Shown in pieces: positions 35,592 through 59,184 of a stretch of DNA of 64,000 bases. A program made the position numbers and the translations under genes. The DNA comes from Bacteroidota bacterium (GTDB lineage Bacteria; Bacteroidota; Ignavibacteria; UBA10030; UBA6906): contig JAHBUR010000020.1 of NCBI GenBank assembly GCA_019637975.1, positions 1 through 64,000 on the forward strand. The letters are read 5' to 3'. The notes below the pieces were generated by a model that worked only from the letters and a program-made list of their open reading frames with translations, ran no database searches and was not told where the DNA came from. The first letter of the stretch is position 1. Each line of letters starts with the position of its first letter.

Positions 35592-35655
35592 TGAACGCCT
35601 TACGTACCGACGAGAGTATGTCGGGTTGCTGCATCATGTTCTTTCGAAGAATGGT

Positions 35656-36561
35656 ATGACTATTCACTTGCTTGGTGTTCCCATGGATTTGGGTTCCGGT
35701 CGGCGCGGAGTCGATATGGGACCGTCAGCCATCCGAATTGCCGGGCTTAGCGACCGGTTGAAGGAACTCGGCCACAAGATAGTTGATGATGGGGATATCG
35801 ACATTAAGAATATGGAAGAACTCCGTGTCGGCGATGTTCGGGCACGCTATCTGAAGGAGATCTCCCGCGCCTCGACAATTCTTGCCCGCCATACGGAGGG
35901 CATCATGAACAACGGACGCTTTCCTTTGATTGCCGGTGGCGATCATTCTATTGCGATCGGGTCGATTTCCGGCATTGCTGCCTTTGCAAGAAAGAAGAGA
36001 AAGAAACTCGGTGTACTGTGGGTTGATGCGCATGGCGATATGAATACGCCGGGAACATCTCCTTCAGGCAATGTTCACGGTATGCCTTTGGCATGCCTTC
36101 TCGGGTACGGTCCCGGTGACTTGAAGAAAGTTGGTGGAGATTTCGACAAGATAAAACCTGATAACGTAGCCCTCGTTGGGGTTCGCAGTCTCGATGACGG
36201 TGAGCGCAAGTTCATCGAGCAAACAGGCGTTCACGTCTTCACGATGTCGGATATCGACAGGCAGGGAATTCATCGTGTTATGAAGAAGGCGATCTCGAAA
36301 GTGACGAACGGAACAAGCTATGTTCACGTCAGCTTCGATCTCGATGCCGTTGATCCGACGATAGCGCCTGGAGTCGGAACGCCTGTGAAGGGGGGACTCG
36401 ACTACCGCGAGGCTCATCTCATAATGGAATCATTGTACGAAGCGAAAGCAATGACATCATTGGAGATCGTGGAAGTCAATCCAATACTTGATGAACAAAA
36501 TACATCGGCTGAGTTTGCGGTTGAGATAGTTCAGTCGGCTTTCGGCAAGAGGATTTTGTAG
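35656..36561 (+). CDS. rocF: Arginase (ureohydrolase family)
   Basis: Mn-dependent hydrolase splitting L-arginine into ornithine and urea. 301 residues from ATG at 35656 (MTIHLLGVPMDLGSGRRGVDMGPSAIR); the open frame begins 10 codons earlier at a TTG, which I reject because the conserved N-terminus starts here. The three metal-binding motifs are visible: GGDHSIAIGSI, WVDAHGDMNTP, SFDLDAVDP, with the arginase-specific SGNVHGMPL loop. Closely related agmatinases lack that loop. Next gene panC follows at 8 bp. Confidence 0.9.
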   Translation: MTIHLLGVPMDLGSGRRGVDMGPSAIRIAGLSDRLKELGHKIVDDGDIDIKNMEELRVGDVRARYLKEISRASTILARHTEGIMNNGRFPLIAGGDHSIAIGSISGIAAFARKKRKKLGVLWVDAHGDMNTPGTSPSGNVHGMPLACLLGYGPGDLKKVGGDFDKIKPDNVALVGVRSLDDGERKFIEQTGVHVFTMSDIDRQGIHRVMKKAISKVTNGTSYVHVSFDLDAVDPTIAPGVGTPVKGGLDYREAHLIMESLYEAKAMTSLEIVEVNPILDEQNTSAEFAVEIVQSAFGKRIL

Positions 36562-43640: not shown

Positions 43641-43670
43641 TTGCAATCGCGGCTACTCCTTTTGTATATT
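43641..43670 (+). promoter_or_regulatory. Promoter of the mntA-hepT pair
   Basis: TTGCAA (43641-43646), 18-bp spacer, TATATT (43665-43670). The -10 box lies inside the first of three overlapping inverted repeats. Confidence 0.6.
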
Positions 43671-43706
43671 GGATACAAAAGTATCCATACGGATACAAAA
43701 GTATCC
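43660..43706 (+). promoter_or_regulatory. Palindromic operator array of mntA-hepT
   Basis: Two identical palindromes GGATACAAAAGTATCC at 43671-43686 and 43691-43706 have starts 20 bp apart (about two helical turns). A third inverted repeat TTTTGTAT-ATTGG-ATACAAAA (43660-43680) shares its right arm with the first and contains the -10 box. The N-terminal winged-helix of the downstream MntA protein is the natural candidate to bind here. Binding would block RNA polymerase. Confidence 0.75.
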
Positions 43707-43723
43707 AAATGAGGATTTCGCCG

Positions 43724-44341
43724 ATGGCCGTTCACAATGTGCTCGATTACGTATTTGCAGCATGGTCACATGTTGCTGTCCTTCGTGTTGTTCAAGATTC
43801 GGCGGTTGGGATGACAGGCCGTGAGATTGCCCGCCTTGCCCAAATGAGTCACCGCTCATGTTTGAAAGCCCTCACAACGTTGGAACAGCTTGCCATCATT
43901 CAGCGACAACGAGGTGGAAGGGACCATCGATTTCTATTAAACAGGGATCATGTTCTCGTGAAGCACGGGGTACTACCACTGCTCAAGTCGGAACGTAGTT
44001 TCTTGAATGAGCTGACACAGACACTTGTCAGAGGTTTGGGAACGCAGGCGCGTTCTGTTGTGCTGTATGGGAGCGCTGCCCGCAAAGAAGACCGGCTCGA
44101 TAGTGACTTGGATATTTGCGTTGTGGTGGCTACGGAACGCGATGTCGAACAAGTGCAATCTTCTCTCCAAGATCTTGCGTCACTTATACTGCGAAGGTTC
44201 GGTGCCCGCCTTGCGCCTCTGCTTATGACTTCTAAAGACTTTGTAACGAAAGTGAAGAATAACAAAGCGCCAGTGTCCAGTATTCTCAAGGAAGGAATCG
44301 TGTTGCACGGACGCTCACTGCGGGAGCTTGCACGTGGCTAG
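43724..44341 (+). CDS. mntA: MntA-type antitoxin: winged-helix plus minimal nucleotidyltransferase
   Basis: Antitoxin that adenylylates its HEPN RNase partner. About 205 residues from ATG at 43724, which has a GAGGA 8 nt upstream; the earlier in-frame ATG at 43709 has no SD and abuts the operator. Residues ~5-75 form a winged-helix DNA-binding domain (MTGREIARLAQMSHRSCLKALTTLEQL split over ~30-56), unusual for MntA and likely to autoregulate. The nucleotidyltransferase motif GS-x10-DxD is complete (GS at 116-117, Asp128, Asp130). The hepT gene overlaps its end. Confidence 0.85.
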   Translation: MAVHNVLDYVFAAWSHVAVLRVVQDSAVGMTGREIARLAQMSHRSCLKALTTLEQLAIIQRQRGGRDHRFLLNRDHVLVKHGVLPLLKSERSFLNELTQTLVRGLGTQARSVVLYGSAARKEDRLDSDLDICVVVATERDVEQVQSSLQDLASLILRRFGARLAPLLMTSKDFVTKVKNNKAPVSSILKEGIVLHGRSLRELARG

Positions 44342-44738
44342 GAGCAGGCGTGTCAGTGTATCGCGTGAACGCTCGTCAGACTACATGAACGTAGCGGAAA
44401 ACTTCTATCAGGGTGCCGGGCTTGCCCGTGAATTCGAATACTGGAACGCAGCCGGTGTACTCATAGTTCATGCTGCCATTGCACTCCCGGACGCTGTTGC
44501 GATCAGGTTCGGAGGCGTGAAAAGTCAAGGGGAAGACCATCACGATGCAGCGACTCTGCTGGATGAACTTGTTGCCGGGGATGACATGAAGAAGACTGCG
44601 TTGGGCCAATTGCGGCGCATCATCGATCACAAGACTTCGGTTTCTTACAGCGGGGAGGTGTATAATCGGAAAGACGTGGAACAACTCTGGAAGCAACTTG
44701 AGAGGTTCCGATTGTGGGCAAAGTCGATTCTCCAATAG
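44334..44738 (+). CDS. hepT: HepT-type HEPN RNase toxin
   Basis: 134 residues, all-helical HEPN domain; the RNase motif R-x4-H is present as R-RIID-H around residue 102. GTG at 44334 is chosen because GGGAG lies 7 nt before it; a TTG two codons upstream is too close to that SD. The gene overlaps mntA by 8 bp, the usual order (antitoxin first) for coupled translation. HEPN toxins cleave tRNA or mRNA and are silenced by adenylylation near the HEPN tyrosine; here a downstream tyrosine follows in SVSYSGE. Identification by motif and pairing. Confidence 0.8.
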   Translation: MARSRRVSVSRERSSDYMNVAENFYQGAGLAREFEYWNAAGVLIVHAAIALPDAVAIRFGGVKSQGEDHHDAATLLDELVAGDDMKKTALGQLRRIIDHKTSVSYSGEVYNRKDVEQLWKQLERFRLWAKSILQ

Positions 44739-44780
44739 ATGTGAAACAATATTCTGTGCATCTTCAATATACGAAGCGAG

Positions 44781-45203
44781 ATGACCATGAAAGCCACCGC
44801 CACCTACTCCGTCAAGAAATGGGAAGAGAGCACGCTGCAACAAATCCCTCCCGACATGAAAACAACCAGAGCCTCCGTCGAGTACGAACTCAAAGGCGAC
44901 CTCGAAGGCAAAGCAACCGTTGAGTACCTGATGTTCTACGTTCACGCCGACGAGAAAGATCAGCACAACTCCACCGCCGTGTACACCGGACTCATCCGCT
45001 TTGAGGGGAAGCTCAACGGCCGCGCCGGGAGTTTCGTGATGAAGGATGACGGCAAGTTTGCTGGCGGTGCCGCTGAGTCGTCATTGAAGATTCTCGATGG
45101 TTCGGGAACGGGGGAACTGAAAGGCATCAGCGGCACAGGCATGTATCGGGCGGATAGGGAAGGGGCGAGGATGGAGGTAGACGCCAATGCAAACAAGGGG
45201 TAG
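44781..45203 (+). CDS. DUF3224-domain protein
   Basis: 140 residues (138 if the second ATG at 44787 is used). Whole protein is the DUF3224 beta-barrel: ATATYSVKKWEE at the start, YLMFYVHADEKDQHNSTAVYTGLIRFEGKLNGRAGSF split in the centre, and GSGTGELKGISGTGMY at the end. The fold resembles allene oxide cyclase; function unknown. Same strand as hepT (42 bp gap); a TATA-like box is hard to separate from the hepT 3' end. Confidence 0.85.
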   Translation: MTMKATATYSVKKWEESTLQQIPPDMKTTRASVEYELKGDLEGKATVEYLMFYVHADEKDQHNSTAVYTGLIRFEGKLNGRAGSFVMKDDGKFAGGAAESSLKILDGSGTGELKGISGTGMYRADREGARMEVDANANKG

Positions 45204-45250
45204 CTTTCTGAAAAATCTGTTTCTGCTGAATCAGCCGAAAGGTGGTATTT

Positions 45251-46216
45251 GTGGGCTCACATGATGGTCGACCCTTTATTCCGGATACAACAGAATGGCA
45301 ACCGAGATATAGTGCTGCGGGCACTCTTAAATCGGGATTTGTGAAGAGATGCAAGGCATTAGAGCAGGGAATCTGTTTGAGAGTCGAATCCGAGAAGACT
45401 ATGAATATTGATGACTATGATTCACGCTTAGGAGTAGAAGACATACTCAGAGATGAACTTGGAAAGATCCTTCCCGCCCGATATAGCGTGAAGGCAGGAG
45501 TTGTTAACGACAGGAGCGGAAATACAGCAGGGGATATCGATATAGTTGTATTCAATGATATTTGGTTCCCATCACTAAAGGCTGGAGCGACTAGTCAGTC
45601 GCGACGAGTTCACTTGCCAATTGACGGCGTCTATGCCGTCTGTGAAGTCAAGCAAACAATAGACTTCAAGGTTCTTGACGAGGCTATGAAAAAACTTGTG
45701 ATGTGCCACCGACTCCAGCGGCCAATGACCCATGCTCAAAGGCTCGTTGAGAATCGTGAGGTCAGTCATTGTGTTCACGGCCTGTCGAATCCGCTATATT
45801 CAGCAATCATAGCAACGAATCTAAAGGCTGGTATAGATATCAATGAAATGGTTGACAGATTCTTTTTGATAAACAAAACGCTTAAACGTCTGGAGGTAGT
45901 TCGGGCATTTTGCGTATTAGGACATGGAACAGTGACTTGGGCATTTAAGGACGAGAAGAACGAAATCCGTCCAGCACTTTTTATGATGGAGGATCTTCTT
46001 CAGCCGATCTTTCCTGCCTTTCATAGAATTCCGCAAACTGAATCACCTTTGTACGCTCTGGTTTCAGATCTGATGCTGCATCTCTATCATTCGGTTTTGG
46101 CGCCGGAGGACATCGCACCGAGCTATGGTCCTGTGTCGCCGACTATCAGCGTTCCGATGTCGAATAAAACTATCTTGGCTCCTGACAATGAGATACCTTC
46201 CCGGATGGAGCAGTAG
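45251..46216 (+). CDS. DUF6602-like protein with PD-(D/E)xK nuclease-like core
   Basis: About 321 residues. Core pattern: GDIDIVVFND (Asp in beta-hairpin) followed by VYAVCEVKQTID, i.e. D...E-x-K as in PD-(D/E)xK restriction-type nucleases. This fits DUF6602, which occurs in defence islands and near mobile elements. The start is uncertain: GTG at 45251 has AAAGGTGG 5-8 nt upstream, GTG at 45242 overlaps that SD, ATG at 45402 would still include the core. AT-richer and with less biased codon use than the neighbours, suggesting recent transfer. Whether it cuts DNA is not known. Confidence 0.65.
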   Translation: MGSHDGRPFIPDTTEWQPRYSAAGTLKSGFVKRCKALEQGICLRVESEKTMNIDDYDSRLGVEDILRDELGKILPARYSVKAGVVNDRSGNTAGDIDIVVFNDIWFPSLKAGATSQSRRVHLPIDGVYAVCEVKQTIDFKVLDEAMKKLVMCHRLQRPMTHAQRLVENREVSHCVHGLSNPLYSAIIATNLKAGIDINEMVDRFFLINKTLKRLEVVRAFCVLGHGTVTWAFKDEKNEIRPALFMMEDLLQPIFPAFHRIPQTESPLYALVSDLMLHLYHSVLAPEDIAPSYGPVSPTISVPMSNKTILAPDNEIPSRMEQ

Positions 46217-46330
46217 TCCGGTGGGCGGAACAAGAAGATGAACGGAAGGATTCTCAACAGACAAACATACGATGAAATGCCCGAACGCTTCAGTCGGGAA
46301 GTGGCGCTGTAATCCGCAATCCCCAATCTC

Positions 46331-47341
46331 TCACAACTTCTCCACCGGATACTCATCCAACATATCCAATATCCCCTCAATCGTCTTCGGCGAATTTCCC
46401 TCCGCACGGTTGTTGATGTAGGCGTAGAGCGAGCGGCCCTCGGCAATACAACGGTGGACTGCCTCAACGATGCCTAATCTCAGCTCGGGGTTCTCTTCTT
46501 TGATTTCCGTGTAGGGCTGAAACAGCCGCACGGCATCTTCGTACTTTCTTCCTGCTTTGAGCAATGCTCGCGACACGCTGAACTTCGTTGTGAGAATGCC
46601 GCCAATCTTCAGTTGCTCGATAATCGGCGGCATGCGGGTCCAGTTGTTCAAGACATGGGCGACATCGTGCGCTTGCAACATCTTCAAATACTCTTCCGTC
46701 AAAAAATTCTCGTTGCGCAGCTCGATGGCGAAATCAAATCCCTTCGGCAGACGGTGAAGAAAATCGTCTATCATCTCTACAAATTTGTCATAGTTGATTC
46801 CCGAGTTCGGATGAAATGTCGAGAACTCGAAGATAATCACGCCCCGCTTTTTCTGCAGGTGTTCAAGCGGTTTGAGAAACTGCTGTTGAAACAACTCAAC
46901 ATTGAGGAAATCCGGATTCTCCGTTCCGGCCTTCGGGCCGAAGCGGGGAATATTCGGATAGCGTTTGATCGTGATGCGGTCGGTGACTTTGAGCGAGAGC
47001 TTGAATTCATCCGTCGTTTGGTCGTGGATGAATTTCATTTTGTCGGGATCGGGGAAGTCGTACAGAGCAAAGTCGGCGCAGACGGTCGGGAAGAGTTCTG
47101 AGTACTCGGCGAGGGCGTTGTCGTTGAACGTCTTTTTCGATTTGTACTCTTTGTTGTAGATGTGCCCGCGCCAGCCGGGATATTTCCACGACGACCCTCC
47201 GAAGTAAATGCCCTTGCTCGCCCATCGCTTGATGCGAGGTCTATTCTTCTCCACGTACTCGGATGTTGCCTTCACTTTCTTCGGCGGAGGGTTGTCTCCG
47301 AAGAGTGAAAGAGTGGTATCTTGTTTCTTTTTCTTACCCAT
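46331..47341 (-). CDS. DUF72 family protein (second, divergent copy)
   Basis: 336 residues from ATG at 47339-47341. N-terminal ~50 residues are lysine-rich (MGKKKKQDTTLSLFGDNPPPKK), then DUF72: GIYFGGSSWKYPGWRGHIY, DFALYDFPDP, FEFSTFHP, FAIELRNENFL, YAYINNRAEGNSPKTI. Low similarity to the first DUF72 protein and with the 'GSSWKYPGW' subgroup signature. Lies 157 bp downstream of DUF1015 on the same strand, behind a terminator hairpin. The frame is open 13 codons further upstream. Confidence 0.85.
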   Translation of the reverse strand: MGKKKKQDTTLSLFGDNPPPKKVKATSEYVEKNRPRIKRWASKGIYFGGSSWKYPGWRGHIYNKEYKSKKTFNDNALAEYSELFPTVCADFALYDFPDPDKMKFIHDQTTDEFKLSLKVTDRITIKRYPNIPRFGPKAGTENPDFLNVELFQQQFLKPLEHLQKKRGVIIFEFSTFHPNSGINYDKFVEMIDDFLHRLPKGFDFAIELRNENFLTEEYLKMLQAHDVAHVLNNWTRMPPIIEQLKIGGILTTKFSVSRALLKAGRKYEDAVRLFQPYTEIKEENPELRLGIVEAVHRCIAEGRSLYAYINNRAEGNSPKTIEGILDMLDEYPVEKL

Positions 47342-47363
47342 ACATACTCTGCCAAAATACAAA

Positions 47364-47385
47364 GCCCGTTGTCGAAGCAACGGGC
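47364..47385 (-). terminator. Terminator after DUF1015
   Basis: GCCCGTTG TCGAAG CAACGGGC: 8-bp perfect stem; on the minus strand it is followed by TTTGTATTTT. Located 115 bp past the DUF1015 stop and just before the DUF72 start. Confidence 0.65.
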
Positions 47386-47404
47386 AGAGAGTCGTGTGAA
47401 AATT

Positions 47405-47490
47405 CAGCCACTAAGACTCAAAGATCTCGAAGGTTTCACCAAGTCACTCTTCGTGAATCCTCTGTGACCTCTGTGACTTTGTGGCGTTCT
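47405..47490 (+). repeat. Dispersed CACAAAG-type intergenic repeat, copy 2
   Basis: GCCAC(TAAGACTCAAAG)...(ACTTTGTGGC) with internal TCTGTGACC/TCTGTGAC units; imperfect long palindrome. Related in style to the element at 42893-42955. Non-coding space between DUF1015 and its terminator. Confidence 0.4.
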
Positions 47491-47499
47491 TTCTTTGTC

Positions 47500-48741
47500 C
47501 TAGCTCAAAAAATGCACAACCACCCCATCCCGCAGCTTTGGCTCGAACCACGTGGATTTCGGCGGCATGATCTTCCCCGCGTCAGCAATTGTGAGCAACT
47601 CTTCAATTGATGTGGGGTAGAGGGCAAACGCAACGGCCATCTCGCCTGAATTCACCCGCCTCTCCAACTCTTTCGTGCCGCGGATCCCGCCGACGAAATC
47701 AATGCGCTTGTTCGTGCGCGGGTCGTCAATGCCGAGAATGGGGGCAAGAATGTTCTTCTGCAAAATCGAAACGTCGAGCTTTTCAACAGGGTCGGGATTG
47801 GTGAGATACGAAAGATCGGCTTTCAGCGTATACCAGTGGCCGTTCAGATACATGCCGTACTCGCCTTTGGCTTTCGGCTCTGCTTGTCCCGACTTCTGTA
47901 CCGTAAACTTGTGCTTCTTGATCTCATCCAGGAAGGCCTCTTCGTTCAGGCCGTTCAAATCCTTCACGACTCTGTTGTATTCCATGATCCGAAGCTGATT
48001 ATGCGGGAAGAGAACGGCAAGAAAGAAGTTGTATTCTTCATCTCCTTTGTGATTCGGATTGGCGTCAGCGATTTCCTTTCCGACTCGTGCCGCTGCCGCC
48101 GAGCGATGATGCCCGTCTGCAACGTACAGGTTGTTCACACGACCGAAATGCTCGACGAGATGGCGGATCGTCTTCTCGTCCGAAATCACCCACAACTGGT
48201 GACGGATGCCGTCGTCTGCGACGAAGTTGTACACTGGATCGGCAAGTCGTACGCGATCCACAATCTCATCGATGCGCGGCTCGGCGTGATAGGTCAGGAA
48301 TATCGGGCCGGTATGGGCGTTCGTTACTTTCACGTGCCGTGTCCGGTCGTCTTCCTTATCCTTACGCGTCAGCTCGTGCTTCTTGATCGTGTCGTTGAGA
48401 TATTCCTGCACCGAAGCGCAACCGATGATGCCGTATTGCGTATGCGTGCCCATCGTCTGCGCGTAGACATAGAAATAGGGATGCGGGTCTTCCTTCAGAA
48501 TTCCGTCACGAATCAGCTTCTGCAAATTCTCCTTCCCCTTTTCATACACAGCCGGGTCGTACAAATCCGTGCCGCGAGGCAGATCAATTTCCGGTTTGCC
48601 GACATGCAGAAACGAAAGAGGCTTGCCTTGCGCTTCGATGCGGGCCTCTTCGGAACTCAAAACATCATACGGATTTGCCGCAACCTGAGCGGCATATTGG
48701 GGGAGAGGACGAAATCCCTTAAACGGTCGAACTGTTGCCAT
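47500..48741 (-). CDS. DUF1015 family protein (possible serine kinase-like)
   Basis: 413 residues, entire length DUF1015: PFKGFRPLPQYAAQVAANPYDVLSSEEAR, DPHPYFYVYAQTMGTHTQYGIIGC split around residues 86-110, NAHTGPIFLTY, LYVADGHHRSAAAARV (a conserved DGHHR motif shared with ParB/Srx-like serine kinases). Genes of this family commonly lie next to serA and a class V aminotransferase, as they nearly do here, which suggests a role in serine metabolism (serine phosphorylation); this is inference. A hairpin repeat precedes it by 40 bp. Confidence 0.8.
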   Translation of the reverse strand: MATVRPFKGFRPLPQYAAQVAANPYDVLSSEEARIEAQGKPLSFLHVGKPEIDLPRGTDLYDPAVYEKGKENLQKLIRDGILKEDPHPYFYVYAQTMGTHTQYGIIGCASVQEYLNDTIKKHELTRKDKEDDRTRHVKVTNAHTGPIFLTYHAEPRIDEIVDRVRLADPVYNFVADDGIRHQLWVISDEKTIRHLVEHFGRVNNLYVADGHHRSAAAARVGKEIADANPNHKGDEEYNFFLAVLFPHNQLRIMEYNRVVKDLNGLNEEAFLDEIKKHKFTVQKSGQAEPKAKGEYGMYLNGHWYTLKADLSYLTNPDPVEKLDVSILQKNILAPILGIDDPRTNKRIDFVGGIRGTKELERRVNSGEMAVAFALYPTSIEELLTIADAGKIMPPKSTWFEPKLRDGVVVHFLS

Positions 48742-48781
48742 GGACTATCTCACAATTTTGTTGGGTGAAGAATGAAGAAAA

Positions 48782-48855
48782 AAGTGCACGGACGAGAAGA
48801 TCATTCTGGATTTCCGTGCACTTTGAGATTACGACTTTGCAGCGAGAGAAGCAAC
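48782..48855 (-). repeat. Intergenic hairpin repeat, copy A (direct repeat of 54503-54572)
   Basis: 11-bp perfect stem AAGTGCACGGA / TCCGTGCACTT with a 20-nt loop, continued by TTTGAGATTACGACTTTG and ending in GAGAAGCAAC. Nearly identical to copy B over about 70 bases in the same orientation. Positioned after the stop of the M6 cargo gene and before DUF1015. Could work as a terminator or as a recombination site. Confidence 0.85.
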
Positions 48856-48879
48856 CAGCCGCTCGGCAGGTGGTTGCAT

Positions 48880-51800
48880 TTACCTGAGAAGCACGAGCTT
48901 GTGCGTTTGCGTGAATGAGCCGGCTTGCCCGTCCCTTCGGGACGAGGTCTCGCCTACGGCGGAGATGCGATAGAAGTAGATGCCGCTGGCAAGCTGCCCT
49001 GCGTTGAGAGTTGCTTGGTGAGAACCAGCCTCCTTGACTTCATCCACCAGGCTCATCACTTCCCTTCCCAAGATGTCGAACAGTTTCAACGAGACATGAG
49101 CAGTAACGGGGAGCTCGTACTTGATTGTTGTTGTCGGGTTGAACGGGTTGGGGTAGTTTTGGTTTAATACAAACTCCTGAGGTAGTAGCGTCGTTCCTTG
49201 TGTAGTTGTTGTTACATTGCCGGCCTTCGCAAGGGAAGTCCGGTTTCTATTGCTTTGCGCAATCTGAAGTTGCCTCACAGCCAACTTGGTTTCCGGAGTG
49301 CGGCTGTGCCTTTGCATTAAGGTACCGAGAATCGAAGCTGCATCCGTTGTGCTCTGTTCAACATAAAGCTTGTCCAGAAATGTCTCATACAACGCAGTTC
49401 GCTCCAACGGGCTATTAGGATTCTCGAGTATGTTCTTGTTGAAGAAAGCGAGCGCGGCACTTCTTCTTCGTTCGTGCAAGTACATACTCGGCAAAACGGA
49501 CCGTATCTGATGATCGAGTTCACGATGTTGGGCCGCCAAACCAAGAAGATATGATGAAGTGTGAACGTCAGAAAGTTGTTGCCCTACTGCAAGCATCTGC
49601 CGAACTGCCCACCTGCGGAGCCAGCCCGGTTTAGTCCGCTGGCTAACAATCTCACGCAGAGTCTGCAGTGCCTCAGCATAGCGCTCTTCTGTTCTCATCT
49701 CTATTACGCGTACGAGGTCGTCTTCCCCCGGTGTTGTGCGCCCACCGCGAACTCCGCCCTTTTCTACATCTTCCATTGTGAGGCGCACCTTCGGATCAGC
49801 TTGCGTCAACGGTCTGTACGATTCGTTGGGATCACGATCAAGCCACGGAGAGGGATCGATCTTTGATTCTTCGTCTACCAAGAACTTCTCTGATGGGTCT
49901 TCGTCCTTACCCCACCAGTCGTTTGCTGCTAAGACTTCGCTTCCTCCTGATATGATTGCCTCCACATTGCCATTGACGAAACTGTTCTGCCCGCCATCGG
50001 GATTGTGTGTCGTGATTGACCCGAGAATGGCATCGGACTGATCGCAGGCGAACCCCACTTCGTTCTCTGTAAACACGTTATTTCCACCTCGAAAGACCCC
50101 TTGCAGTATCGGCGAACTGTTGCTGACGTTTACCATCGCATAGTGAAAGCCATGTATGCGGTTTTCAAGAAGCGCCGGGGATGCGTTGTTGCAGAGGATT
50201 CCGTACCGATCTTCGGTGCATTCTATGCAGCTGCCTTCGATTGCGTTACGCTCAAGTGAAATATTGGAGTAGTCGTTTATAATGATTCCAAATGATCGAA
50301 TATTGACGAGATGGTTGTCAGAGATGTTTATGTGAGGGGGAGCTACCGGACACTGCTGAGCGGATGGCGCAAACTCAATCCCGATCTCTGCATCATCAAT
50401 TACGGAGTTTGTGAGGGTGAGTCTCGTGTTTGTAGCGATGCGAACCGCAGTGCTTGCGTGCTCGATACGAGCATAGTCGAGAGTACTTACGCTTAACGGA
50501 CTGCAGTTAGTGGCCGCAATGCCGTTCCAACTTCCCGACGTTCCCGTTCGGGTAAAGAGCACAGGTTGATTTGAGGTTCCTTCTGCAAAAAGAGAGCCCC
50601 CGATTAGAACGCCGTGTCCATCAGCGAACTCCAGCGTGGTGCTTGGACTAAGGATTAGGGTTGAACTTGGAGAGACCTCCAAACCAGTGAGGAACCTGAA
50701 CGTATTGCCGGTCAACTTGAGTTCCGAGACGATGTTCAGTTGCCCGTATATATTCACATGACGATTATCCGCCTGAAGCGTCGCTATCGTTCCTTGTGCA
50801 CCAGGATAAAAGGTTGCGGTGGTTCCGGTCTGCAGAGTGAAGTCCGCCATAGCCACTTTGACCTTGCCAAAGATATGAAGGTTCGTGAACCAATTGCTGT
50901 CCAATCCTGAAATGTCGACTGGTGGTACAGTGCGCGCTGCACCCGACACATGTATGTCATTGTCACAGTCAATAAAGGAGCACAGCCGAACCTTGGCAAG
51001 GGGATTCCCGTCAAGGGATACCCCTATGGTGGCGTTTTTGATTTGGCAATAGCGCAAACGTGCGGTAGAGGTCAACTCGCGAAATGAATACCCACCATGA
51101 ACCCGTTGCGTACCGTAACCTGGACCGTCAAATAGGATTGGGAATTGTGCGGTCCCAACTGCTTCAAATGGGCCTCTCAGCGATCCTGCGGCGTCGACAA
51201 CGCTTCCTGGGAGAATCTGAACTTGAGCCGCGGTATTCTGTACATAGATCCTCCCCGAAATTGGAGCTTGAGGTAGATTGCTCATGCCAGAGTAGACTAC
51301 ATGATCGTACGTTGGTTGCGGTCCTCGTTGATAAGAAACAGAAAATGTCAGATTGTTGCCGCTGATAGAGAAACTCTGCAACGAAAGACCTGTGACCAAG
51401 TTTGCTGCTGAGTTTGAGTTGGGATCCGTCGACGCAGAATCTAAAACTTGACCAGCGGAATAGAAAAAGTGGGAAGGGCTGCCAGAATTGCCCGCAAAAT
51501 TCAGTTCTGGAAATGGGAAGAAGCCCGGTGCTTTAAGCGCAATGTTGTATCCGGCATTAAACCCCAATTGGAATGGGTAAAAGGAATAATGCCAGATCAA
51601 ACCTCCACCCCCAAACCCGCCTGACGGACTTACGCCTCCGGAGAATCGATTGAATCCTTCGCGGGTACGATACTCAATCATTAAGTACTCACCATGGCTC
51701 CAATTTGAATCGCGCCCTGCATCGCCATACACAGTTACAAGAGCTATAAGATAGCTTGGGGCGGTGGGCAATGTATGAATTGGTATCAGCCCAACTGTGC

Positions 51801-52800
51801 TATCGGTTCGCACTTTAGCAACTTTCGAATCGGGAATCCAGCCGGCGGCCCACTTTAACAACGGGTTGAAATGCGGCGGACAATACAGGTGTTGATTCCA
51901 AGTGTTCCGAAATGTGAAGTTCATCGGGTCATACGATCCATGGACCATGTGCTCGAATCTCAAGGTATGACCGAATTCATGTACTGGTATCCAGATGCCA
52001 TCGAACGTGCTAATACTTTCGTGGTTTCTATATCTCTTTTCCCTCACTCCAATAAACCGCCTCTCTTCCGCAACTCCTCCCACGCCACCACCTGCCGTAA
52101 CAACCAGGATTTTACCAGTATAAGACAGCCTGTTGAACTGTATAGCTCCATTCCGGTAAAGCGAGTCAAGCACTGGCAACACTGCAGTAGGCTCGCCGTT
52201 CGGGTGATAGTGACTCTTTGGGTGCGGCATCATTATCCAGCGCACGTATTTCTTTCCGTTGGCCGTATCAATAGCGTTCACGATTCCGGTGTTGTACTTT
52301 GTAGGCTCCACGCTTATGTTCCATGTTCGAAATGGATTGATCGTGAGATTGCCGTAGCTTACTTCGGCGTAGTATTCCTTCAGACTTCCGTACGCCAATA
52401 TGCCATGAGAGGTCGAATCTGGGTGTCGAGGTCCGTAATACTCGCCTTCGGAGAATATCCAATCCCAATAATCCTCGTAGGTGTATTTTCGAGCCTTTTT
52501 GCGAAGTGAGTCGGGAAAAACTTCATCACGAACCCAGCCCATCCCTCCAACAGCATCAATGTTCTCGACAGAATCAAGATGTGAATCGAGAATGGGAACG
52601 AGACTTCCCGGTTGCATTCTTCCATCGGGGAAATCGACAAAGACGAGAACGAGATCTTGGGTAGAATTGATTAGCTGTTGAATCTCTGCCAGTGGATTTC
52701 CAGAGGTCGCATCAACTGTACCGCAACGCCCTTCTTCTTCCTGAGCAAAACCTCTAGCAATGTGAAACAAGGCAACAAGAATACAGATTGTTGATTTCAT
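48880..52800 (-). CDS. Secreted M6-type metallopeptidase with beta-helix and T9SS sorting domain
   Basis: 1306 residues from ATG at 52798-52800 (GAGG 7-8 nt upstream; the frame is open 4 codons more). Signal peptide to GFAQ. Residues ~30-470 are an M6-like peptidase with intact zinc motif HEFGH (274-278). Residues ~520-1030 are right-handed parallel beta-helix/NosD-like (many N/G turns, e.g. NNASPALLENRIHGF, VSNSSPILQG). Residues ~1060-1210 are helical, TPR-like. The last ~95 residues are a T9SS type A domain (NQNYPNPFNPTTTIKYELP...SLKLFDILGREV...SGIYFYRI). Cargo of the T9SS in this window, by inference. Lower GC and weaker codon bias than serA. Confidence 0.85.
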   Translation of the reverse strand: MKSTICILVALFHIARGFAQEEEGRCGTVDATSGNPLAEIQQLINSTQDLVLVFVDFPDGRMQPGSLVPILDSHLDSVENIDAVGGMGWVRDEVFPDSLRKKARKYTYEDYWDWIFSEGEYYGPRHPDSTSHGILAYGSLKEYYAEVSYGNLTINPFRTWNISVEPTKYNTGIVNAIDTANGKKYVRWIMMPHPKSHYHPNGEPTAVLPVLDSLYRNGAIQFNRLSYTGKILVVTAGGGVGGVAEERRFIGVREKRYRNHESISTFDGIWIPVHEFGHTLRFEHMVHGSYDPMNFTFRNTWNQHLYCPPHFNPLLKWAAGWIPDSKVAKVRTDSTVGLIPIHTLPTAPSYLIALVTVYGDAGRDSNWSHGEYLMIEYRTREGFNRFSGGVSPSGGFGGGGLIWHYSFYPFQLGFNAGYNIALKAPGFFPFPELNFAGNSGSPSHFFYSAGQVLDSASTDPNSNSAANLVTGLSLQSFSISGNNLTFSVSYQRGPQPTYDHVVYSGMSNLPQAPISGRIYVQNTAAQVQILPGSVVDAAGSLRGPFEAVGTAQFPILFDGPGYGTQRVHGGYSFRELTSTARLRYCQIKNATIGVSLDGNPLAKVRLCSFIDCDNDIHVSGAARTVPPVDISGLDSNWFTNLHIFGKVKVAMADFTLQTGTTATFYPGAQGTIATLQADNRHVNIYGQLNIVSELKLTGNTFRFLTGLEVSPSSTLILSPSTTLEFADGHGVLIGGSLFAEGTSNQPVLFTRTGTSGSWNGIAATNCSPLSVSTLDYARIEHASTAVRIATNTRLTLTNSVIDDAEIGIEFAPSAQQCPVAPPHINISDNHLVNIRSFGIIINDYSNISLERNAIEGSCIECTEDRYGILCNNASPALLENRIHGFHYAMVNVSNSSPILQGVFRGGNNVFTENEVGFACDQSDAILGSITTHNPDGGQNSFVNGNVEAIISGGSEVLAANDWWGKDEDPSEKFLVDEESKIDPSPWLDRDPNESYRPLTQADPKVRLTMEDVEKGGVRGGRTTPGEDDLVRVIEMRTEERYAEALQTLREIVSQRTKPGWLRRWAVRQMLAVGQQLSDVHTSSYLLGLAAQHRELDHQIRSVLPSMYLHERRRSAALAFFNKNILENPNSPLERTALYETFLDKLYVEQSTTDAASILGTLMQRHSRTPETKLAVRQLQIAQSNRNRTSLAKAGNVTTTTQGTTLLPQEFVLNQNYPNPFNPTTTIKYELPVTAHVSLKLFDILGREVMSLVDEVKEAGSHQATLNAGQLASGIYFYRISAVGETSSRRDGQAGSFTQTHKLVLLR

Positions 52801-52851
52801 GCGTAACCTCATGCGGCTGTAATTCGGTTATATGGTGCACCAGGCGGTGAT

Positions 52852-54465
52852 TCACTTGATCAACATCATTGATTTTGAAGAAACTGTCTTGTAATTGAAC
52901 CTCAAACGACAAATGTATACCCCGCTGGACCACTTCGATACGTCAGTGAGTAGGTGGTATATCCCCGGCTCTTGATACTGATCAACCAACGTCACAATGT
53001 TCCTCCCAACAATGTCAAAAACCTCAAGTTGAACGTTACCGCTTTCGAACAATGAATAGCTGATCGTGGTCTTGTTGTTAAAAGGATTCGGAAAATTCTG
53101 GAACAGTCGTATTCTGTCCGCCAGGAATTGTTCAATCGCAACCTCAGTTATAATGCCAACAGATCCCTCGCGACCAGTATGCTGCGCGTATATGCCCCCT
53201 TGTGTTCTCCAAAAGGCAACAACCACTCCCCCATTCTTGTCTCCTTCAAATACATCGAAGTACGTATTGCCTGCATTTTGTATGTACAGAACCGGGTTAG
53301 CCCACCTTCGGTTACCCGTAAAATCATATCGCTGAGCTATACCAGCTTCATTTGCTAGAACCAATCCGCCGTTACCATCAGAAAAAGCATAGCCGCCAAC
53401 TTGAGAGGCAATCTCTGGGAACAAAATACGCGTATACTGTCCAAGATGGTCAAAGTGGTATATCGTATCCTGACATGCGTACAAGTAGTATACGCCGCCG
53501 TTTCCATCTGGGGTCAGCGCCCCACGTCGGAAAGGAATTACACCTTCGCATCCCGACCGAATGCTGAATTGAGCGTTCCACACAGTGTCACCCATACTAT
53601 TAAGTTTCAATATTCTCAATCCGGTTTCACCGCTCAGGACAAATACAGCGCTGTCTCTGTCGGAGACCATGAACGCGTAGCCTCCGATAGGCGTCTGAGT
53701 AGAAAGTAGTCCGCTATGCGTCAGAACGCGCGTACCCGCAGATGACGTGAAGAAAATACGTTCTTGTGTCCGTAGCAGGTTCTTATATTGCAGGGTATGC
53801 TGTGCGTAGCTTGAATCAAGGATTCGTTCCCAAACCATCGCGCCCAAGTTGGAAATATGCTGTATCCTTGTACGCTCTCTTCCCTGTGCACCTGGAAAAC
53901 CAAACTCGGACTCGCTCCACGCAATGACACATCCCCCTTGTCCGTCATTCACTATTCCACCTTTTTTAATCCCCGTCTCAGGTCCTTTCACCAACACACC
54001 ACCGTATGCCCATCGAACTACACCAAGCCTATCGACTCGCTGCACGTAAATGGCGTTATTTGCCCAGTCCGGTCCGTTGATGTGTGCGCCCCTGTGGTCG
54101 TACCAAAAAAGTATCACCCCCCCGTCCCCATCGCTTATCCAACCTCCCCAGTCTCCTATCAGCGGAGCTTCCGTGATGTAGCTGCTGTCGTGGTGCATCA
54201 CTTGCACGGGGGGCCATAGGTAATAGCCACGCTCATCAAGCTTGCGCGCGTAAATGTAGCTATCCAATGCGCCTAGCACAATTGAGCTACCGTTATCAAA
54301 TGTGACGATACCCGGATAGAATCCCGGACAAACATACAAGGCGCTCTCAGCGAGGGTACTGGTGCTCCACTGAGCGACGAGCGGCGACACCCAAAAAAGG
54401 GTAATGCCGAGAATGAACATTCTGAGGCGGTACTGTCTCATCGGCGAGGGAATGCGGCTTGTCAT
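52852..54465 (-). CDS. Secreted repeat protein with T9SS sorting domain
   Basis: 537 residues from ATG at 54463-54465 (GGAG 8-9 nt upstream). Signal segment MFILGITLFWVSPLVAQ. Body with recurrent 'DG(D/N/Q)GG.(V)(I/V)..W' strands (ISDGDGGVILFWYD, VNDGQGGCVIAW, TPDGNGGVYYLY, SDGNGGLVLAN, DKNGGVVVAFW), each about 60-80 residues apart, suggesting a beta-propeller. C-terminal T9SS type A domain (NFPNPFNNKTTISYSL...LEVFDIVGRNIV...SGVYICRL). Follows directly upstream of the M6 gene on the same strand (52-bp gap), making a two-gene cargo unit. Function unknown. Confidence 0.8.
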   Translation of the reverse strand: MTSRIPSPMRQYRLRMFILGITLFWVSPLVAQWSTSTLAESALYVCPGFYPGIVTFDNGSSIVLGALDSYIYARKLDERGYYLWPPVQVMHHDSSYITEAPLIGDWGGWISDGDGGVILFWYDHRGAHINGPDWANNAIYVQRVDRLGVVRWAYGGVLVKGPETGIKKGGIVNDGQGGCVIAWSESEFGFPGAQGRERTRIQHISNLGAMVWERILDSSYAQHTLQYKNLLRTQERIFFTSSAGTRVLTHSGLLSTQTPIGGYAFMVSDRDSAVFVLSGETGLRILKLNSMGDTVWNAQFSIRSGCEGVIPFRRGALTPDGNGGVYYLYACQDTIYHFDHLGQYTRILFPEIASQVGGYAFSDGNGGLVLANEAGIAQRYDFTGNRRWANPVLYIQNAGNTYFDVFEGDKNGGVVVAFWRTQGGIYAQHTGREGSVGIITEVAIEQFLADRIRLFQNFPNPFNNKTTISYSLFESGNVQLEVFDIVGRNIVTLVDQYQEPGIYHLLTDVSKWSSGVYICRLRFNYKTVSSKSMMLIK

Positions 54466-54502
54466 AAGATCATCTCCGCAAGTTTGGGCTGTAAAGCGAA
54501 GT

Positions 54503-54572
54503 AAGTGCACGGAAGAGAAGGCCTCGATTTCCGTGCACTTTGAGATTACGACTTTGGACTCAGAGAAGCAAC
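54503..54572 (-). repeat. Intergenic hairpin repeat, copy B (direct repeat of 48782-48855)
   Basis: AAGTGCACGGA / TCCGTGCACTT 11-bp stem, 16-nt loop, then TTTGAGATTACGACTTTG and GAGAAGCAAC, same orientation as copy A. It begins 4 bp after the serA stop codon (minus direction), where a terminator would be expected. Confidence 0.85.
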
Positions 54573-54576
54573 TACA

Positions 54577-55512
54577 CTACACGAGAACTTCTCCCTTCTT
54601 GTATTCGCCGAGCGCCGCGACAACTTTTTCTGCAATCTCCACGCCGACCCTGTCCTGTGCCTCCTTCGTCGAGCCGCCGATGTGAGGCGTAACGGAGACG
54701 CGGGGATGGTTGATGAGTTCGAATTCCTCCTGCGTCGGGGGCTCATGCTCGAACACGTCAAGCGCGGCATACAATACTTTGTGGCTGTTCAGTGCCTCGA
54801 GCAAATCACGCTCGTTCACCACTCCGCCGCGGGCGCAGTTGATGAGGATGACGCCGTTCTTCATCTTCTCAAAATCATTCTTTGCAATGAGCGGCCCGCC
54901 GGCTTTGTCAAACGGTACATGCAGTGTTACATAGTCGGAGATGCGGAGGAGTTCTTCCTTTGATACCATCTTCACGCCTTTGATGTCCGTGTCCTTGATG
55001 TACATGTCATAGGCCACGACGTTCATCATCAAGCCCATTGCGCGCTTGGCGACTTCCGTTCCGATGTTGCCGAAGCCGATGATGCCGAGCGTCTTGCCCG
55101 TCACTTCGATGCCCTTGCTGAATTCCTTCTTCGGCCATTCACGATGCCGCATCGCAATGTTGCTCATCGGCACGAACCGCCCGATTGCAAGCAGATGCGC
55201 AATCGTCAGCTCCGCCACCGAAATGGATGATGCCTTCGGCGTGTTGAGGACTTTGATCTGCTTCATCTTCGCATATTCAACATCAATATTGTCAACGCCC
55301 ACGCCCCCGCGGGCAATGACCTTCAGATTCGTGCCGGCGTCAATCACCGCCTTCGTTACCTTCGTTGCCGAGCGGACGATGATGGCGTCGTATTCGGGGA
55401 TTGTTGCTAACAATTCGTCCGGAGTGAGTGTTTTCTGCGTCAGCTCGAAACCCGCCTTCAACAGAATGTCGGCACCGGATTTTTCGATTCCGTCTGTGAT
55501 AAGGATTTTCAT
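54577..55512 (-). CDS. serA: D-3-phosphoglycerate dehydrogenase (short, no ACT domain)
   Basis: First step of serine synthesis: oxidises 3-phosphoglycerate with NAD. 311 residues from ATG at 55510-55512 (MKILITDGIEKSG; AAGGGA 6-7 nt upstream). Rossmann motif GKTLGIIGFGNIGTEVAKRA, catalytic residues in NCARGGVVNERDLLEAL (Arg), DVFEHEPP (Glu) and TPHIGG (His). The C-terminal ACT/ASB regulatory domains are absent, so no serine feedback by that route. Follows the aminotransferase gene by 42 bp. Confidence 0.92.
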   Translation of the reverse strand: MKILITDGIEKSGADILLKAGFELTQKTLTPDELLATIPEYDAIIVRSATKVTKAVIDAGTNLKVIARGGVGVDNIDVEYAKMKQIKVLNTPKASSISVAELTIAHLLAIGRFVPMSNIAMRHREWPKKEFSKGIEVTGKTLGIIGFGNIGTEVAKRAMGLMMNVVAYDMYIKDTDIKGVKMVSKEELLRISDYVTLHVPFDKAGGPLIAKNDFEKMKNGVILINCARGGVVNERDLLEALNSHKVLYAALDVFEHEPPTQEEFELINHPRVSVTPHIGGSTKEAQDRVGVEIAEKVVAALGEYKKGEVLV

Positions 55513-55554
55513 GGTCGTCCCTTTCATATTGTAGAGCGGAACTCCAGTTCCGCT

Positions 55555-56625
55555 TTAGAGTTTAAGAATGCTTTCGATAGCTGCTGTTACTTCCTTCACA
55601 TCATTCAACGTCAGTTCGCCCATATGCGCAATGCGGAATGTCTTCTCCTTCAAATCGCCGTAGCCGTTGGAGATTTGCAGCCCGACTTTTGCAAGCTCGC
55701 TGTTCAATCCCGCGACGTTGATGTTCCGCGTGTTGGTGATTGTTGTGAGAGTCTGCGACGCATACTTCTCGACCGGGAAGAGAGCGAAATGTTTCTTCGC
55801 CCAGGCGCGGGTGAACTCGGCCATTTCCTTGTGGCGGGCAAAGCGGTTGTCAAGGCCTTCGGCGAGAATCCGATCCAACTGGAAGTTCAGCGCAAACATA
55901 TGCGGCAGCGACGGGGTTGCATGATATTGGTGGTCCTTCGTCTCGATGTATTTGTAGATTTCGAGAAGATCGAGATACCAGCCGCGATGCTTCACTTGCT
56001 TGCCGTGTTCGAGCGCCTTGCGGGAGATCGAGCAGATTGCCATACCGGGTGGCAGCGCCAGCGCTTTTTGCGTGGAGGTGATGCAGACATCGATGCCTAA
56101 CCTGTCCACTTCCACCTTGGCGCCGCTCAATGCGCTGACGGAATCGACAAGCCACATCACGTCGGGGTATTTCTTGCGGACTTCGGCAATCTCCTCCAAC
56201 GGATTCATGATGCCGGTGCTTGTTTCGTTGTGCGTGATGGTGAAGACGTCGTACTTGCCGGTGGAGAGGTACTGGTCGACGATTTCCGGCGTCGTCGGCT
56301 CGCCCCATTTTGCTTCATGTTTGTCAGCGGGGATGTTGTTCACTTCCGCCATCTTAAACCAACGGTTGCCGAACGCCCCGACGGAGAACACAACGGCGCG
56401 CTTCGCCGTCAGCGAGCGAATGGAGCCTTCCATCAATCCCGAACCGGAGCTTGTCGAGAGGAGGATGGGATTTTCCGTGTACATCACTTTCCGCAACTTC
56501 TCCGAAATCTCCTTCTGCATCTTCGATGCATCCTTGCTGCGATGCCCGATCATCGGAGTTGCGAGTTTGGCCAACACCTCGGGCGCAACTTCGGTGGGGC
56601 CGGGGATGAAGAGTTTCTTGTGCAT
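55555..56625 (-). CDS. Class V aminotransferase (alanine-glyoxylate / phosphoserine type)
   Basis: 356 residues from ATG at 56623-56625 (MHKKLFIPGPTEV; GAGG 5 nt upstream). PLP enzyme with IPGPTEVAPEVL, GSGLMEGSIRSL, LVDSVSALSG and the PLP-lysine motif TSTQKALALPPGMA. In serA-linked operons this family acts as phosphoserine aminotransferase instead of a true SerC; inferred for this gene from its position just before serA. Specificity for alanine, serine or phosphoserine cannot be read from the sequence. First gene of the minus-strand run. Confidence 0.88.
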   Translation of the reverse strand: MHKKLFIPGPTEVAPEVLAKLATPMIGHRSKDASKMQKEISEKLRKVMYTENPILLSTSSGSGLMEGSIRSLTAKRAVVFSVGAFGNRWFKMAEVNNIPADKHEAKWGEPTTPEIVDQYLSTGKYDVFTITHNETSTGIMNPLEEIAEVRKKYPDVMWLVDSVSALSGAKVEVDRLGIDVCITSTQKALALPPGMAICSISRKALEHGKQVKHRGWYLDLLEIYKYIETKDHQYHATPSLPHMFALNFQLDRILAEGLDNRFARHKEMAEFTRAWAKKHFALFPVEKYASQTLTTITNTRNINVAGLNSELAKVGLQISNGYGDLKEKTFRIAHMGELTLNDVKEVTAAIESILKL

Positions 56626-56990
56626 GATTGCCTCGGTAGTTATCGTGTAGGTGAACGCGTAGTAATACTCTTCTAAAGAAGGCAACCGTTGTGCCACGCC
56701 GGACTGTGAGAACTGTTTGAATTTCACGTCTAAACGTTGGATTGATGTTGCGCTTTCCTACAAATCGGAGGAGAGAGACACGGGTTTTTCAAAAGTGGGA
56801 ATGAGGAAGTGATGAATGTTTCAACAGACGCTTGGAGCGAAAACAGCCTGCATTTCGTGTAAGGAATTTCGAAGGCAGAGTCAGGGAATCCCTGATTGAC
56901 AAGGGCCGAACGGAGAAGTATATTGAGGCAACCCTGAAGATAGGCTTTCCATTCTTCGCATTTCAGGCAATCCTGTACCTTGAAGATAAA
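56626..56990. other. 365-bp divergent intergenic region
   Basis: Between the aminotransferase (minus) and the 56991 lipoprotein (plus). It holds one clear plus-strand promoter (56896-56924). No minus-strand promoter could be chosen. The plus frame of the lipoprotein is open through much of it, but without a plausible signal. Confidence 0.5.
56896..56924 (+). promoter_or_regulatory. Promoter of the 56991 lipoprotein
   Basis: TTGACA (56896-56901), 17-bp spacer, TATATT (56919-56924); start predicted near 56931, 60 nt before the ATG. Confidence 0.65.
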
Positions 56991-58067
56991 ATGAAAAGAA
57001 CCACACTGCTGCTGCTCGTTCTTGCTGTTGGTTTCAACTGCAAGAAAGAACCCCCCGTTGTGCCCCCCAACGGCGGACCGGATACGACCTCGCACCAGTT
57101 CTCGTTTGTTCTCGACACACTCGGCGACGGGAATTCGAGTGTGCTGAACGACGTGTTCATCATTTCGGAGAGCAACGTCTGGGCAGTCGGTGAAGTATAT
57201 CTACGAGACTCGACGGGACAGATCGATCCGACGCGCTACAATCTAGCACAATGGGATGGTGCAGCATGGAGATTTCTCCGGGTTCTTTTTCCTGTTTGCA
57301 ATAGCAGTGGACAAGAGATTGGGACATTTCCGTTTGCTGCGACCAGCATCTTCGCCTTTGCGGCGAATGATGTTTGGATCGCGTCGCTCGGCACAGTAGT
57401 TCGTTGGAATGGTCAGGTGTTTCAGAGAATATGTTTGCCACCGGGTTCGGCACAGGGAAGTTTCAAGAAAATATGGGGCCACGCCGGAAAGCTGTACTTG
57501 GTAGGAACGAACGGGAACATCACGTACTTCTCTGGAACCAATTGGCAGCGCCTTGAAAGCGGCACGACGGTAGATATCCAGGACATTTACGGTGCGGTGG
57601 ATGGGCGGACGGGGGAGACCGAGATTCTGGCGGTGGCGTCACTACAGAACTATGGGCGTGGGCTTGAAATCCTAACGTTCAATGGTTCCGCGGTCACTCG
57701 ACTAGATACTACAGGTTTACGCCTTGCACAAAGCAGCCTCTGGTTCGCACCTGGTGGGAAGCATTATGTCGCCGGTGATGGTCTGTTCTGGAAGGAGGAC
57801 CTTGGTACAGGTCGCTGGTCGCTTGATACGACGCAGCCAAATATCTTCAAGCGAAGGATTCGTGGCAATGCGGCCAATGATGTTTTTGTGGTGGGGGATT
57901 TTGGCCTTGTGTCGCACTACAACGGCGCGACCTGGCGTCAGTATGGAGGCCGAGAGATTCCACATTTTTTTGGTTCGTTGGTATCGGTCGCAGTTTTCGG
58001 AGACCGGATGATAGCAGTCGGGGAGATTTCTAACAAGGCAATTGTCCTTCGAGGACAAAGACCCTAA
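56991..58067 (+). CDS. Lipoprotein with beta-propeller-like repeats
   Basis: 358 residues from ATG at 56991 (MKRTTLLLLVLAVGFNC); lipobox VGFNC gives a lipidated Cys17. Repeated 'NDVW/FVxGxxGxVxxxNGxxW' strands (ESNVWAVGEVY, ANDVWIASLGTVVRWNG, ANDVFVVGDFGLVSHYNG) point to a propeller of WG/Kelch-like kind. Upstream in-frame codons are ignored because the promoter and lipoprotein signal fit this start. No sorting domain. Function unknown; probably surface or periplasmic. Confidence 0.65.
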   Translation: MKRTTLLLLVLAVGFNCKKEPPVVPPNGGPDTTSHQFSFVLDTLGDGNSSVLNDVFIISESNVWAVGEVYLRDSTGQIDPTRYNLAQWDGAAWRFLRVLFPVCNSSGQEIGTFPFAATSIFAFAANDVWIASLGTVVRWNGQVFQRICLPPGSAQGSFKKIWGHAGKLYLVGTNGNITYFSGTNWQRLESGTTVDIQDIYGAVDGRTGETEILAVASLQNYGRGLEILTFNGSAVTRLDTTGLRLAQSSLWFAPGGKHYVAGDGLFWKEDLGTGRWSLDTTQPNIFKRRIRGNAANDVFVVGDFGLVSHYNGATWRQYGGREIPHFFGSLVSVAVFGDRMIAVGEISNKAIVLRGQRP

Positions 58068-58104
58068 CATGATGTGCATGTTCAATCATAAGCAAGGAGG
58101 AGTT

Positions 58105-58824
58105 ATGAAGTGTCTCATTGCATTCTTAGTAACAGTATTGCTTGCATATAGCTCAAGCGCGCAAGTTCGAATCTCTGAAACCAGTGCGCCAAAAGCCGAG
58201 CCACATGTGGCTGTCAATCCAACAAACCCAAACCACATAGTCGTTGTGGCCATAACAAAAATCAATTTTGCCCGCATAGGTGCTTACCGTACAACGAATG
58301 GAGGCGTCAATTGGATCGGGAGCGACGATATTGTCCAGCAGGTGAATGTTGATGCGGGAGACCCCGTCGTTGCATTCGATGGGGCAGGGAATGTTTATGT
58401 GCTCTATCAGGTGCGAACACAGGGGAAACTGTACCTTCTTGAGTCAATGGATGGTGGGGTAACATGGGAACCGGCGATGACGGTTTTTACCGGTGATCCT
58501 GACAGACCGTGGATGGCGATAGATGAATCGCCCAATGCTGCGGGATTCTATGATATCTTTGTTGCAGTGACGAGTTTTGAGGGCTCTCAAGTTTCGGACA
58601 TTGTCCTCACTAGGTCCACCGACGGTGGGGCCAGTTTTTTCGCCGCCACCTTGTCGGCTGTTGGAAATAACCAGGGTAGTTATGTTGCGATCGGGCCAGA
58701 CAATGATGTCTTTGTCGCTTGGGCAGAACTCAGTTCGGTGAACGCTGTAACTCAGATCAAGGTTCGGCGATCTACAGATCGAGGGGTCACATTCAGCGGG
58801 GCCCTGATTTTGTGTACCTCTTGA
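58105..58824 (+). CDS. Short exported Asp-box (BNR/sialidase-like) protein, probably truncated
   Basis: 239 residues from ATG at 58105 with a strong SD (AAGGAGGAG). Signal peptide ending in SSSAQ. Four Asp-box motifs (TTNGGVNW, SMDGGVTW, STDGGASF, STDRGVTF) mark blades of a sialidase-fold propeller. A full fold needs 6-7 blades and cargo versions end in a T9SS domain; this one stops at TGA right after the fourth box. That stop overlaps the -35 box of the btuB promoter. Probably a 3'-truncated gene. No catalytic sialidase residues (FRIP) seen. Confidence 0.6.
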   Translation: MKCLIAFLVTVLLAYSSSAQVRISETSAPKAEPHVAVNPTNPNHIVVVAITKINFARIGAYRTTNGGVNWIGSDDIVQQVNVDAGDPVVAFDGAGNVYVLYQVRTQGKLYLLESMDGGVTWEPAMTVFTGDPDRPWMAIDESPNAAGFYDIFVAVTSFEGSQVSDIVLTRSTDGGASFFAATLSAVGNNQGSYVAIGPDNDVFVAWAELSSVNAVTQIKVRRSTDRGVTFSGALILCTS

Positions 58825-58849
58825 CTTCCGCGCCTCAACGCGCTATATT
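58821..58849 (+). promoter_or_regulatory. Promoter of the cobalamin-controlled btuB operon
   Basis: TTGACT (58821-58826), 17-bp spacer, TATATT (58844-58849); start predicted near 58856, about 27 nt before the riboswitch. Confidence 0.7.
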
Positions 58850-58882
58850 GTCTCCCACAAGTTCGCTCTTTCTCAAAACAGA

Positions 58883-59081
58883 TTTTGGTGTCCCGACATA
58901 AAGGTCGGGATGAAAAGGGAATTCCGTACATCCGCTTCGGCGGACTTAAGCGGAAGCTGCCCCGCAACTGTAATCCCGATTCTGCCTCGCGCAGAATCAG
59001 TATTCTCTCATGAACGTCACTTTCCACAAAGCACGGTGGATGGGAAGACGGGAGAATCGGGAAAGCCAGGAAACCTGCCAA
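58883..59081 (+). promoter_or_regulatory. Cobalamin riboswitch
   Basis: The aptamer is recognised by TTTGGTG at the start, a TCCCGAC/GTCGGGA stem, AAAAGGGAATTCCG, then GAAGCTGCCCCGCAACTGTAAT (B12-box region; positions about 58955-58976) and the 3' box GCCAGGAAACCTGCC (59065-59079). Spacing and order match the class. B12 binding should reduce expression of the downstream btuB and BtuG-like genes. Confidence 0.93.
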
Positions 59082-59098
59082 AATCTTCAGTCCTACAC

Positions 59099-59181
59099 AA
59101 TCTTCGCGGGAAGATTCGGGAACGGCACAACATGAAAGTGTGTGTTCACCCTGTCTTTCTCAGCGAAGGACAGGGTTTTTT
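59099..59181 (+). terminator. Expression platform with rho-independent terminator for btuB
   Basis: Small hairpin AATCTTC-GCGG-GAAGATT (59099-59116), then the terminator ACCCTGTC (59148-59155) / GACAGGGT (59169-59176) followed by six T. The stem CGGCACAAC ... GTTGTGCCG encloses the terminator and includes the btuB start region. The GGACAGGG of the terminator also serves as the likely SD for the GTG at 59185, so the same bases can block transcription or start translation. Confidence 0.75.
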
Positions 59182-59184
59182 GTT

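Follow-up and report, generated by a model that had tools for sequence, protein, structure and literature searches.

The locus between serA and a DUF1015 gene raises the question of how two genes for secreted proteins came to lie there, with one copy of the same hairpin-bearing repeat on either side. In the window (the whole stretch of DNA analysed, 64,000 nucleotides), the two genes and both repeats can be delimited precisely, and the same place can be read in related genomes. Our analyses suggest that a two-gene insertion probably duplicated the promoter-leader element of DUF1015, and that the cargo pair and DUF1015 now own one copy each. As a well-bounded insertion with an empty site, it would illustrate how a lineage can add new secreted proteins to its T9SS repertoire, with a promoter ready and without mobile-element genes.

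Two cargo genes and their empty site

The inserted segment (48856-54502, minus strand) is 5,647 bp long, has a GC content of 0.500 and carries neither terminal inverted repeats nor a recombinase gene. The first gene of the pair, cargo gene 2 (52852-54465, minus strand), encodes a protein of 537 aa with a signal peptide recognized by eye and a C-terminal T9SS type A sorting domain, and a GGAG-type ribosome-binding site lies 9-10 nt ahead of its ATG. Cargo gene 1 (48880-52812, minus strand) encodes 1,310 aa with a signal peptide (again by eye), a beta-helix and a T9SS sorting domain; its N-terminal part is weakly similar to M6 metalloproteases and contains an HEFGH motif. Both proteins match Por_Secre_tail (PF18962, E about 1e-9) and TIGR04183 at the C terminus. 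Because the gap from cargo gene 2 to cargo gene 1 is 39 bp, the two genes are probably co-transcribed. On the left, the segment is followed by the DUF1015 gene (PF06245; 47500-48741, minus strand), and on the right it is preceded by serA (54577-55527, minus strand), a phosphoglycerate dehydrogenase-like 2-hydroxyacid dehydrogenase gene, together with its upstream partner, a class-V aminotransferase gene (55555-56727, minus strand). The architecture that had been read from the sequence in the original prediction, i.e., two hairpin copies in the same orientation bracketing two genes and no more, both with T9SS sorting domains, with DUF1015 to the left and serA to the right, was recovered in full.

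Calculation bore out the impression, gained by eye, that codon bias is weaker and GC lower in the cargo. The codon scores of the two genes fell into the lowest 7% and 6% among 317 sampled ORFs, and their GC contents were 0.50 and 0.49, compared with 0.53-0.54 for DUF1015 and serA. The difference was larger at third codon positions (GC3 of 0.52 for the cargo and 0.65-0.72 for DUF1015 and serA). T9SS genes as a class had codon scores just slightly under average. Furthermore, no close relative of cargo gene 2 was found in the family, the best match in the family-level search being a partial one of 36% in genome G019, and for cargo gene 1 neither the family nor the order yielded more than partial relatives (≤45% identity). 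Family-level matches to the insert genes were partial in general, with at most 44% identity where they covered short repeats and 36% where they were longer, and the two genes were not paired at any other locus seen. Cargo gene 1 itself resembles a domain mosaic, as its M6-like N-terminal half and its beta-helix C-terminal half have their relatives in separate proteins.

The site is empty in G002, the sister species and closest relative compared, whose DUF1015 protein is 95% identical to the one encoded here. There (L088:4495-4620), the aminotransferase gene, serA, one element and DUF1015 follow one another, and both flanks agree with those of the window. The 74 bp at which the left alignment of the window stops in G002 are also those at which the right alignment starts, so this 74-bp stretch is what was doubled. 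In G001, a more distant congener, serA and DUF1015 are adjacent, 208 bp apart, with no cargo between them. Elsewhere in the family, DUF1015 lies directly after serA or the aminotransferase gene in most genomes with a readable neighbour, and it has other neighbours in G011 and G018. No other family member carries the two cargo genes at this site. Since the pair is absent there from G002, from G001 and from the other members of the family, the simplest reading is that it was gained in this lineage, a preference over an older gain with loss in G002 that rests on parsimony and on the two other genomes of the genus compared. The locus shows the marks of a lineage-specific insertion (genomic islet), with an empty site in close relatives, insert genes that are absent or only distant elsewhere in those relatives and a composition that differs from that of the flanking core genes.

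These comparisons agree with the original prediction in that the gene pair was inserted into an old adjacency and the element was duplicated; a genome joining serA to DUF1015 through a single repeat copy exists in G002, and relatives do not always carry the cargo here. The prediction had also placed the insertion in a serine operon, and in this respect the insertion stands but the mention of an operon goes too far. The segment entered where the transcription unit of DUF1015 begins. In G001, serA is followed by a terminator-like hairpin of its own, with a T run, so there is no need for serA and DUF1015 to belong to one operon. Literature searches on DUF1015 in connection with serine, or on such a repeat bracket, returned nothing.

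The duplicated element as a predicted promoter and leader

The two copies are direct repeats of 70-74 bp that differ by 8 substitutions in 70 aligned sites and a 4-nt gap. The left copy (48782-48855, minus strand) reads into DUF1015 and consists of a -35 box (TTGCTT), 17 bp, a -10 box (TAATCT), a hairpin with an 11-bp stem and then TTTTTT, with the DUF1015 start codon 40 bp past the hairpin. The right copy (54503-54572, minus strand) lies after the stop codon of serA and before cargo gene 2 and has the same boxes and stem; its loop is 4 nt shorter and the T run behind the stem is lost (TTACTTCG). In each copy, the perfect stem AAGTGCACGGA/TCCGTGCACTT is followed by TTTGAGATTACGACTTTG and, further on, by AGAGAAGCAAC, which the original prediction had not mentioned. 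The copies are 90% identical over a 50-nt part, compared with 70% over 27 nt for the runner-up repeat family of the region; the self-match of the whole element has an E value of 2e-12, and the longest exact match between the copies is 31 bp. The stem has a predicted fold energy of -20 to -21 kcal/mol in both copies (z about -5.4 against shuffles), and an Rfam search with the element matched no family. None of the 8 substitutions falls inside the promoter boxes or the stem (Fisher p 0.003, with classes defined post hoc on data already seen). The T run is also present in G002; with it, the hairpin of G002 and that of the left copy could additionally terminate serA transcription or attenuate DUF1015.

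Read on the gene strand, the element has the form TTGCTT-N17-TAATCT, and its G001 counterpart reads TTGATT-N17-TAATCT. In 182 upstream regions of the genus, where 5.2 occurrences of the general pattern TTGNNN-N17-TANNNT were expected, 35 were counted; the pattern was enriched at a spacing of 17 only, and the commonest box bases were TTGATT and TATATT. TTGCTT-17-TAATCT would accordingly be classed, as a prediction from sequence, as a sigma-70-type promoter of this genus that is kept as far as G001. The partial homologue in G001, at the equivalent place, is a 34-bp block that spans exactly the TTG and TANNNT boxes; the rest of the intergenic region of G001 aligns poorly, and the leader hairpin is not kept there, being confined to this genome and G002. 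That the gene-strand boxes match the genus consensus, and that only the block with the boxes is kept as far as G001, strongly suggests that the repeat is the DUF1015 promoter with its leader hairpin and not mainly a member of a terminator family. The distance from hairpin to start codon is about 40 nt for both cargo gene 2 and DUF1015. The right copy would now drive the cargo pair, and the left copy would still drive DUF1015. As a by-product, the strict 17-bp-spaced promoter consensus may aid annotation in the genus.

The element is confined to this locus. It occurs twice in this genome (G000), both times here, and once in G002, and no further copies were found in this genome, in the family or in 98 genomes of the order with exact, mismatch, stem-only and covariance-model searches. 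It had no match in viral contigs or plasmids, it was not found beside any other T9SS gene, and no donor DNA bearing it was found. Further, none of the other T9SS genes was bracketed by repeats in 627 kb of G000 and G002 that hold 38 T9SS-like genes; the other bracket hits in these sequences were different repeats flanking non-T9SS ORFs. A dispersed terminator-like or REP-type element was rejected, as many copies after unrelated genes were not seen. The element shares with REP-like dispersed repeats that it is short, palindromic and intergenic, but it differs from them in having two copies only, both at this locus. The idea that cargo genes move between terminator-like repeats is therefore not upheld, the repeat being neither dispersed nor found beside T9SS genes elsewhere and belonging mainly to the DUF1015 promoter and leader.

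Origin of the insertion

In the origin that we propose, a 5.6-kb segment with two genes for T9SS-secreted proteins would have entered between serA and DUF1015, at the DUF1015 promoter and leader hairpin, and would have left one 70-74-bp copy of the element on either side. Our first choice for the mechanism, a tentative one, is that circular or duplicated DNA with a similar element recombined with the resident copy in a single crossover. In E. coli, circularised DNA is known to integrate by single crossover (PMC3240628). A staggered-break or template-switch event that merely duplicated the target is possible as well and nearly as likely. At spacer sites 13, 14 and 16, the one copy in G002 has the state of the right copy, and at loop sites 48 to 56 it has that of the left copy; the sites are few, and positions 12 and 63 break the pattern. 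This mosaic fits a crossover within the 31-bp identical core, either through insertion of element-bearing DNA or through a later deletion in G002, and it fits, less neatly, a plain duplication with mutation of both copies. On the other hand, an exact core of that length is short for ordinary homologous recombination, which speaks against a crossover.

The locus resembles genomic islets formed by single-crossover or homology-facilitated integration (PMC3240628) in its foreign-looking gene pair, the lack of a recombinase, the empty site and the target repeated directly at either end. It differs from them in its short duplicated stretch, which falls on a promoter and leader hairpin. Nothing here implies dedicated mobile-cassette machinery or reveals a new recombination system; the gain is of an everyday kind, recent-looking and neat in detail. 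A wider reading, which we regard as improbable, is promoter-targeted capture, in which T9SS cargo would recombine into a conserved promoter-leader and come under the host promoter, with one copy left for the host gene that it displaced. Were such capture to recur, a lineage could add expressed secreted proteins without an integrase.

The strongest competitor to a gain in this lineage is an insertion that predates the split from G002, with G002 having lost the pair via recombination between the direct copies, which would have restored a single element. We consider it rather unlikely. A copy that is right-like in the promoter spacer and left-like in the hairpin loop is what a deletion between repeats leaves, and G001 agrees with the left copy at two spacer sites, so that the right copy and G002 may share a derived state. 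Nevertheless, the same mosaic is also produced by insertion via crossover, and an older gain followed by loss takes two events instead of one, with the insert missing in G001 and in the other family members.

It is quite improbable that an unknown transposase or integrase acted in trans on a non-autonomous element and duplicated the target site, giving attL/attR-like flanks. One copy in the empty site, two copies with the insert and precise flanks are compatible with such an event, and integrative elements (attL/attR) likewise show one site when empty and two hybrid sites around the insert. Here, however, there is no integrase in the insert, no tRNA gene or known attachment gene and no mobile cargo; terminal inverted repeats and a recombinase are lacking, no copies occur in plasmids or viral contigs, and no second such insertion was seen in the 627 kb sampled. 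Target duplications made by transposases are far shorter than 70-74 bp. A transposon proper was rejected, as the insert consists of the two T9SS genes only and the inverted identity of its 60-nt ends, where terminal inverted repeats were sought, was 43% at best.

The original prediction had likened the segment to an integron cassette, which would require that each cargo unit has an attC-like hairpin, is recognised by an integrase and circulates. Hairpin-bearing direct copies do flank promoterless genes, a gene unit beside a hairpin-forming repeat in one orientation is what integron gene cassettes (attC) also present, and the genome encodes one integron-type integrase (TIGR02249, 467 bits; C38:31569-32510, L207) on a contig of 32.7 kb that ends 160 bp past the gene. 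Nevertheless, neither copy of the element has R' (RYYYAAC) or R'' (GTTRRRY) sites, and the genome has two copies and no array. A crude scan recognised no attC array on the integrase contig and no attC-like site beside the integrase or at 44000-60000 of the window. In insert-free genomes the element belongs to the 5' region of DUF1015, with a predicted native promoter function. An integron cassette, which appears very unlikely, was thus rejected for want of attC core sites and an array and for an element tied to one locus. An assembly artefact joining unrelated contigs through the repeat is hardly credible either: the genome is a draft of 68 contigs and the cargo genes are unique to it, but a 31-bp longest exact match is short relative to common assembler word lengths, the copies differ, both flanks match G002 unbroken, and codon use is low yet within range.

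Further variation around the locus

Several minor observations were made in and around the locus. At the 3' end of cargo gene 1 (48850-48885), a hairpin of the form GCAACCA...TGGTTGC is possible, with a 3' arm that overlaps the -35 box of the left copy; G002 is without this hairpin. In G002, contig C6 has a dispersed palindromic repeat (TTTTCACCGCCGAGG...CCGCGGTGAATTTTC) with at least three intergenic copies (35567-35665, 36447-36553 and 44658-44748), close to two genes that were named by eye as PIN-like and nucleotidyltransferase-like. In the window, a nucleotidyltransferase/HEPN-like gene pair (43709-44738, within 43641-44787), possibly a toxin-antitoxin pair, is missing from G002 at the equivalent place. 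The other side of the aminotransferase gene (56826-58818) is also variable, as G002 has a different gene set of 4.8 kb, including a T9SS gene, where about 2 kb are found here. Further along, a cobalamin riboswitch (RF00174, 89 bits; 58869-59096) lies upstream of a TonB-dependent receptor gene (59140-61215, named by eye).
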